Shown here: positions 41,652-42,290 of the stretch, one piece after another
Position numbering within the stretch: the first letter of the stretch is position 1
How the letters are laid out: each line of letters opens with the position of its first letter
NCBI GenBank assembly: GCA_009777535.1
Contig: WRLP01000002.1
Span: 62,001-126,000, forward strand
DNA: 64,000 bases
Direction: 5' to 3'
Source: Treponema sp.
Lineage (GTDB): Bacteria > Spirochaetota > Spirochaetia > Treponematales > Breznakiellaceae
The notes under the pieces: model-generated
Databases searched by the model: none
Seen by the model: only the letters and a program-made list of their open reading frames with translations
What the model was told of the DNA's origin: nothing
Translations under genes and position numbers: made by a program

Positions 41652-41920
41652 TGCTTACCATATAATATTAATTTCGGCAGTGTGTCAATTATAATTAAAA
41701 AAAGCGATGAACCATAAGCCGGGTTCTGTATTAACCGCCATCTGTCTTGAAGAACCGTTATCGGCCCTTTCCAGGCAGTCTACCCGCGGTTTGCCAACGG
41801 GTCATTGGCCTGAAGGATCACCCTCAATCCCGCATGCTTGACTTTGCTCCTGATGGGGCTTGCCGTTCCGGCTGCGTTGCCGCCTCCGAGGTGGGCCCTT
41901 ACCCCGCCTTTTCACCCTTA

Positions 41921-42025
41921 CCTGACCACTTAATGCCACTGGATAAAAGTCTTTAATAATGACTTTCGTAACAACGATTTACATCACTACTTATTAACTT
42001 ATACCAATCACATTAAGTGGTCAGG
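41921..42025 (-). repeat. palindromic insertion in the P12 region of rnpB (105 bp)
   Basis: Perfect 15-bp arms CCTGACCACTTAATG (41921-41935) / CATTAAGTGGTCAGG (42011-42025). Confidence 0.9.
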
Positions 42026-42059
42026 CGGTATATTTTCTGTGGCGCTTTCCGTTCCCCAA

Positions 42060-42129
42060 CCTGACCACTTAAATATACTAACAAGCGTTAGCTTGATAAT
42101 TATTGAAGCCATGTATTTAAGTGGTCAGG
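42060..42129 (-). repeat. palindromic insertion in the P9 region of rnpB (70 bp)
   Basis: Perfect 16-bp arms CCTGACCACTTAAATA (42060-42075) / TATTTAAGTGGTCAGG (42114-42129). Confidence 0.9.
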
Positions 42130-42190
42130 CTAAAGACCCGGGCGTTACCCGGCATCATACCCTGCGGAGCCCGGACTTTCCTCCTGACCA

Positions 42191-42257
42191 TCTGACCACT
42201 TAAAATGCCAAAAAGTAAATGCTTTTCATTAAGAAATTAGCATTTTAAGTGGTCAGA
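42191..42257 (-). repeat. palindromic insertion in the P3 region of rnpB (67 bp)
   Basis: Perfect 18-bp arms TCTGACCACTTAAAATGC (42191-42208) / GCATTTTAAGTGGTCAGA (42240-42257). Confidence 0.9.
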
Positions 42258-42290
42258 CAGGCAGGCGGCGGTCTGGTTCATCGCTGTAAT

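Follow-up and report, generated by a model that had tools for sequence, protein, structure and literature searches.

How a single catalytic RNA gene came to hold three related palindromes is the question raised by rnpB in the stretch of Treponema DNA analysed here (64,000 nucleotides; hereafter the window). The gene lies on the minus strand (42284–41700, 585 nt) and was matched by cmscan to RF00010 with 246.5 bits (E = 1.5e-80). The class A covariance model aligned end to end (model positions 1–367) and the conserved core was present, as expected for a bacterial class A RNase P RNA. Without the inserts, 349 of the 585 nt are left. A search of the whole draft of the window's own genome (G000, metagenome-assembled, 92.8% complete, 47 contigs) returned this copy as the sole rnpB match, and the gene for the RnpA protein is present elsewhere (G000:C36:9980).

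All three inserts carry the perfect inverted arms CTGACCACTTAA...TTAAGTGGTCAG, a pattern expected by chance about 2e-8 times in 64 kb. They belong to one palindromic family (family A), and the features given here all lie on the minus strand. The element in P12 (41922–42024, 103 bp) is a member of a ~104-bp subfamily, with a perfect 15-bp terminal stem and a folding energy of -45.2 kcal/mol. At the tip of P9, a 68-bp element (42061–42128) has a perfect 15-bp terminal stem, which together with the P9 strands on either side stacks without a break over 23 bp; in the folded context, the 5′ strand of the carrying stem (42129–42136, TCTTTAGC in RNA sense) pairs with its 3′ strand (42053–42060, GTTGGGGA in RNA sense). 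The 65-bp element at the P3 tip (42192–42256), of the AAAATGCTAA subfamily, has a perfect 20-bp terminal stem that reaches a 24-bp stack in context. It is framed by two outer P3 strands, 42257–42264 (CTGCCTGT in RNA sense) and 42184–42191 (ATGGTCAG in RNA sense), the latter matching the element arm in sequence. This frame is like the nested CTGACCAC[insert]GTGGTCAG arrangements of relatives, and CTGCCTGT is possibly a decayed older arm; P3 without an insert is seen in relatives. Folded in place, the inserts lengthen their host helices, the longest uninterrupted stacks being 17 bp in P12, 23 bp in P9 and 24 bp in P3. The first-pass annotation, made from the sequence alone, had described three perfect-armed palindromes in rnpB, and this was borne out; its block sizes of 105, 70 and 67 bp included one flanking base per side, the elements proper measuring 103, 68 and 65 bp. 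Its placement in P3, P9 and P12 agrees with the covariance model, in which the P12 arms fall within P12 and the P3 and P9 blocks fall in unaligned stretches of their helices; all three are variable peripheral helices. As it had also stated, the 64-kb window contains no further arm copy, with up to one mismatch allowed.

Outside the window, copies exist elsewhere in the genome and in the genus. Pattern searches, from which the copy number is taken, gave 14 palindromes with these arms in the own genome, 3 in rnpB and about 11 elsewhere. The lengths of the latter fall into two classes, one of ~104 bp, whose interiors are related, and one of 26–67 bp. The interior of the P12 insert is 85% identical to that of a copy on another contig, at a terminator-like site (G000:C27:19692-19794), 73% identical to that of C8:700-803 and 70% identical to that of C10:25956-26059, against a 99th percentile of 62.5% for shuffled interiors. 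Sharing 85% of its interior with a dispersed copy, the P12 insert is no ordinary lineage helix but a dispersed repeat. The loops had been called unrelated in the first-pass annotation, which does not hold for this insert, whose subfamily has other copies in the own genome. The annotation had further named two findings that would count against it, ordinary conserved helices without copies elsewhere and blocks that the covariance model does not assign to variable peripheral loops. Neither was obtained: dispersed copies were found, and the model locates the blocks in peripheral helices that vary. Close relatives, moreover, lack the inserts. The probability of at least three of 14 copies falling within 341 nt is 7e-10, and that of at least three of 14 falling in rnpB is 7e-7 if insertions are acceptable in only 10% of the genome.

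Family A, with arms YCTGACYACTTAA...TTAAGTRGTCAGR, measures 24–108 bp and has no coding capacity. A scan of 85,488 species, one genome each, gave 16 stretches, of which 15 lay in metagenome-assembled genomes (MAGs) titled Treponema; the remaining match, 46 bp in Colwellia, was taken as chance. The arm pattern had no match in viral contigs, and the 24 genomes searched from the order's other families yielded no copy of family A. As far as these pattern scans reach, family A is confined to termite-gut Treponema, the termite-gut origin of the MAGs being read from isolate and project names. By the same reading, the host of the window is a termite-gut treponeme. A degenerate-arm search of 40 genomes of the genus raised the collection to 76 distinct places, mostly intergenic. 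The bases flanking the elements were Y on the left and R on the right in 73/74 copies. Target-site duplication was not detected: flanking dinucleotides matched in 10/74 copies, compared with 13.3 expected by shuffling, and longer flanking repeats were absent across the 74 copies, bar one 4-base match. Most DDE transposons make target duplications. Their absence here argues against ordinary DDE transposition, while single-strand or recombinase-like routes remain. Separately, we noticed family-A hairpins with different interiors that share one position in the rpsB leader of four genomes (L058, L124, L126 and L152), one position in the rpmE leader of two (L063 and L118) and one just 3′ of the rpsG stop codon in two (L068 and L144).

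The history of the inserts was followed in 152 rnpB sequences parsed from 120 metagenome contigs and genomes of the genus. Of the 152, 50 carry one or more inserts, belonging either to family A or to the second family (B) described below; 17 carry at least two and 3 carry all three, namely the window and L221 (both A) and L205 (B). L221, with three inserts, and L222, with none, have flanks that are 89.3% identical over 4 kb; L225, with inserts in P9 and P12, and L257, with none, are 88.8% identical over 5.6 kb and 91.4% over 5 kb. Similar copies occupy different helices: the 79-bp copies in P3 and P12 of L232 are identical (interior 1.00), the P3, P9 and P12 interiors of L221 are 0.78–0.91 alike, and the P3 interior of L226 is 0.95 alike to the P12 interior of L237. 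Among the family-A rnpB inserts, 14/55 are nested in an older-looking CTGACCAC...GTGGTCAG stem, and L188 carries an element copy at a fourth place in rnpB, near the 3′ end. Parsimony on the rnpB core tree gave 11 changes at P3, 9 at P9 and 19 at P12; as this tree is weakly resolved, with 6/81 branches strongly supported, the number of gains is a parsimony count only. Short P9 and P12 helices in many relatives carry CTGACCAC-like stems. Many P9 and P12 helices look like eroded elements, and the inserts probably erode to short stems.

Family B has arms (CCAGCACCTAA) that differ from those of family A, and the inner motif CACYTAA...TTARGTG is common to both. The two families occupy the same rnpB positions, P3, P9 and P12. 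Within one rnpB they agree in 16/17 cases, compared with 10.4 by shuffling (P = 0.0007), L074 being scored as mixed by hand. Larger palindromic repeats, too, have either family at their tip. In the own genome (C17), tandem tRNA-Val remnants carry A in one unit and B in the other at the same site, with about 50 nt identical to the left of the junction and 26/28 on the right. These shared sites fit related elements with similar machinery and the same target preference, or an exchange of hairpin cassettes at the site. The remnants (G000:C17:55300-55800; L020 1560-2320) adjoin an intact tRNA-Val(CAC) gene and have structured insertions of about 120 nt at the would-be anticodon loop, with B and then A at their tips.

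We consider it highly probable that the window rnpB received three insertions of one small, non-autonomous palindromic mobile element family, which repeatedly enters the single rnpB at the tips of P3, P9 and P12. The elements are mobile, they have entered rnpB repeatedly, and they are tolerated there, with the core intact and no other rnpB copy found. In the mechanism that we propose, family A would spread through termite-gut Treponema genomes, moved by a trans-acting factor that recognizes the arms, and hairpin tips such as those of P3, P9 and P12 would be favoured targets. Each hairpin would only lengthen a peripheral helix coaxially, so that the RNA would stay functional. The continuous stems of 17–24 bp may in addition be RNase III substrates, in which case the ribozyme would be in pieces but would still work. 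The own genome has an RNase III gene and the stems are of sufficient length for the enzyme, so that fragmentation of the RNase P RNA is a prediction of this model and not a result.

Whether the elements choose their sites is less clear-cut. It is possible, though less probable than not, that they home to hairpins, with a mobilizing system that recognizes stem-loops or single-stranded hairpin DNA and deposits or swaps a palindromic cassette at the tip. The rnpB inserts, some dispersed sites and the tRNA-Val remnants speak for a preference for hairpin tips, for which the support outside rnpB is only partial: some dispersed copies sit at terminator-like tips (C27 and C43) or within other palindromes, and flank complementarity exceeded 95% of local controls at 7/41 independent family-A sites outside rnpB. 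Uniform hairpin targeting was rejected, as it would describe only this subset of dispersed family-A sites and none of the family-B sites. Insertion could instead be blind to structure, with the rnpB excess due to survivorship if a paired stem is selected in rnpB and copies elsewhere decay or are deleted. This is a serious rival because the other 34/41 dispersed family-A sites are without a flanking hairpin and family-B sites show no excess of them, and we regard it as quite possible, if somewhat short of probable. The mostly intergenic location of dispersed copies and the resemblance of many P9 and P12 helices to eroded elements also fit it. However, 12/67 distinct copies genus-wide lie in rnpB, about 0.016% of the genome, which is a large excess for survival alone; the copies at terminator-like tips or inside other palindromes, the rapid turnover within rnpB and several recent inserts, such as the identical pair in L232, also speak against it. 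Selection for paired arms in rnpB could produce part of the excess. If hairpin homing is true, the hot spots would be rnpB, terminator-like hairpins, the anticodon-loop region of tRNA-Val and older element copies, and the peripheral helices of the RNase P RNA of this lineage would be continually rebuilt from mobile DNA.

Mobility itself has been weighed against three further explanations. The palindromes could have arisen in place, from lineage helices P3, P9 and P12 grown by slippage or template switching, with arms made alike through exchange between helices. The CTGACCAC-like stems already present in short helices of many relatives agree with this, and local exchange would also give the family agreement within one RNA. 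Same-subfamily copies at unlinked intergenic sites of the same genome largely refute it, however, and multi-copy subfamilies in G013 and G009 are without any tie to rnpB, so that we regard an origin in place as improbable. The recurrence at the rpsB and rpmE leaders and after rpsG, with arms conserved and interiors different, would suit beneficial or regulatory RNA modules, for instance sites bound by RNase III or by a protein, that stable RNAs and r-protein leaders had recruited, and not selfish DNA; but presence is patchy between close relatives, many copies lie in unremarkable intergenic DNA, and the arms are kept equally well outside transcribed structured RNAs, which makes such a role unlikely. 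That the inserts are an assembly or binning artefact is very hard to credit: the genome is a metagenome-assembled draft and palindromes are hard for assemblers, yet these arms recur across MAGs and contigs of several projects and several termite hosts, and the inserts lie within long contigs, here one of 165 kb, between conserved rnpB blocks that are intact.

The search for the machinery behind these mobile elements covered 1.35 Mb of DNA and the own genome draft, in which no autonomous parent or transposase with these ends was found and no arm pairs stood 140–4000 bp apart around a gene. The sole pair at this spacing was a nested 165-bp case (L156). An unpaired exact arm lies at the end of a glutaminyl-tRNA-synthetase-like gene of the own genome. 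The RAYT-type Y1 transposase (PF01797) had no match in G000 and had matches in 18/40 genomes of the genus. A REP/RAYT identity was rejected for the own genome, which is without a Y1 transposase and has symmetric arms with no tetranucleotide tag at a single end. Elsewhere in the genus, one family-B hairpin (L183, G009:C87) has a Y1-type (RAYT-like) transposase gene at a distance of about 1 kb, in a genome with 13 family-B copies. Other Rfam families gave nothing relevant above the gathering score at element sites, and eukaryotic microRNA models, which matched at a relaxed threshold, were dismissed as reflecting hairpin shape only.

Several known systems resemble parts of this picture. The RNase P RNA of heterocystous cyanobacteria has short tandem repeats in P12, so that repetitive DNA enlarges P12 there too, but as short tandem units in one helix and not as dispersed palindromes. 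The nearest known case is that of the Rickettsia palindromic elements (RPE), which a review reports in tmRNA and M1 RNA (Ogata et al. 2002, cited by PMC2229807). Rickettsia had been offered as a loose precedent in the first-pass annotation; it is closer than that, as palindromic elements are reported inside M1 RNA itself (PMC2229807). RPE are ~100-bp repeats with one long stem-loop and ~12-bp terminal inverted repeats, intergenic and in the RNase P RNA gene (PMC2229807); our elements fit the general description of an RPE-like element, a long stem-loop of ~60–150 bp with ~12-bp perfect arms that occurs in genes and spacers. RPE belong to an unrelated lineage, and the review does not mention multiple copies in one RNA (PMC2229807). 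Unlike RPE, most family-A copies lie outside open reading frames, conserved arms enclose variable interiors, and the same sites are used by two families. Rickettsia gave no match in the arm-pattern scan (one genome per species, 85,488 species), which was a pattern scan and not a comparison of RPE-family homology. The elements also share with bacterial MITEs (Correia/NEMIS, ERIC and RUP) short, non-coding sequences in several dispersed copies, terminal inverted repeats and long hairpins, and NEMIS hairpins are proposed RNase III targets (PMC2229807). They are unlike MITEs in having no target duplication, no parental transposon that we could find, and much shorter minimal forms (24–38 bp). REP sequences mobilized by RAYT (TnpA_REP) are GTAG/CGTC-tagged palindromes (PMC3733652), and our elements resemble them in being small and palindromic and in having the tetranucleotide GTRG in their arms; they differ in their symmetric arms, the lack of a single tagged end and an own genome without Y1 transposase. 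Mitochondrial double-hairpin or repetitive hairpin-forming elements are likewise mobile hairpins inserted in structural RNA genes (rnl and rns), reported to stay unremoved from transcripts (PMC10085805, PMC2800124); they are organellar and often two in tandem, and no report places them in three helices of a bacterial ribozyme. Helices of 23S rRNA, e.g. in Coxiella, can carry intervening sequences (IVS), which are selfish inserts in a peripheral helix of an essential RNA, with RNase III processing as a plausible parallel (PMC4990558); IVS are longer, some encode S23p, and they are located in rRNA.

In the open-access literature we found no description of an RNase P RNA with several palindromic elements spread over several of its helices, and nothing on two families sharing RNase P RNA sites or on rapid turnover between relatives. 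Palindromic elements in RNase P RNA thus have the Rickettsia precedent, and the multiple copies, the two families, the fast turnover and the marked rnpB bias appear to be new. The first-pass annotation had placed the novelty in three palindromes within one RNA; the phenomenon is lineage-wide, involves a second element family and extends beyond this one gene. RNase P RNA is essential and among the oldest conserved ribozymes. Its peripheral helices vary widely between lineages, and to our knowledge the source of this variation is not known. One source is visible here, in mobile hairpins that enter P3, P9 and P12, duplicate between helices and nest in older copies. Because hairpins come and go in the rnpB of relatives, the outer parts of an ancient ribozyme are renewed by selfish DNA. 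Close relatives in the lineage, with between 0 and 3 inserts, also form a natural set of insertion variants of one ribozyme, and the elements may be a case of mobile DNA that prefers hairpins.

Some further sites of both families were noted. A conserved motif, GCGCCTTTCCGAGAGACGTCGTC, is flanked by A or B hairpins in L123 (1600-1670), L319 (complement), L017 (2006-2030) and L309, and adjoins tRNA-Thr in L123 and L319; near tRNA-Thr the motif has A on both sides in G021 but B on both sides in G017. Multi-copy structured repeats of other treponeme genomes have an A or B hairpin at the tip (L061, L066, L092, L094, L098, L102, L103, L110, L113, L139 and L315), with outer stems of about 24–30 bp in several copies, compensatory changes and a conserved inner core. 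The repeats of L061, L066 and others matched no Rfam family, and they may represent a structured RNA not yet described or else a larger mobile element. Finally, Termite-flg RNA motifs (RF01729) lie near some element copies (L011 2159-2258, L115 and L116).
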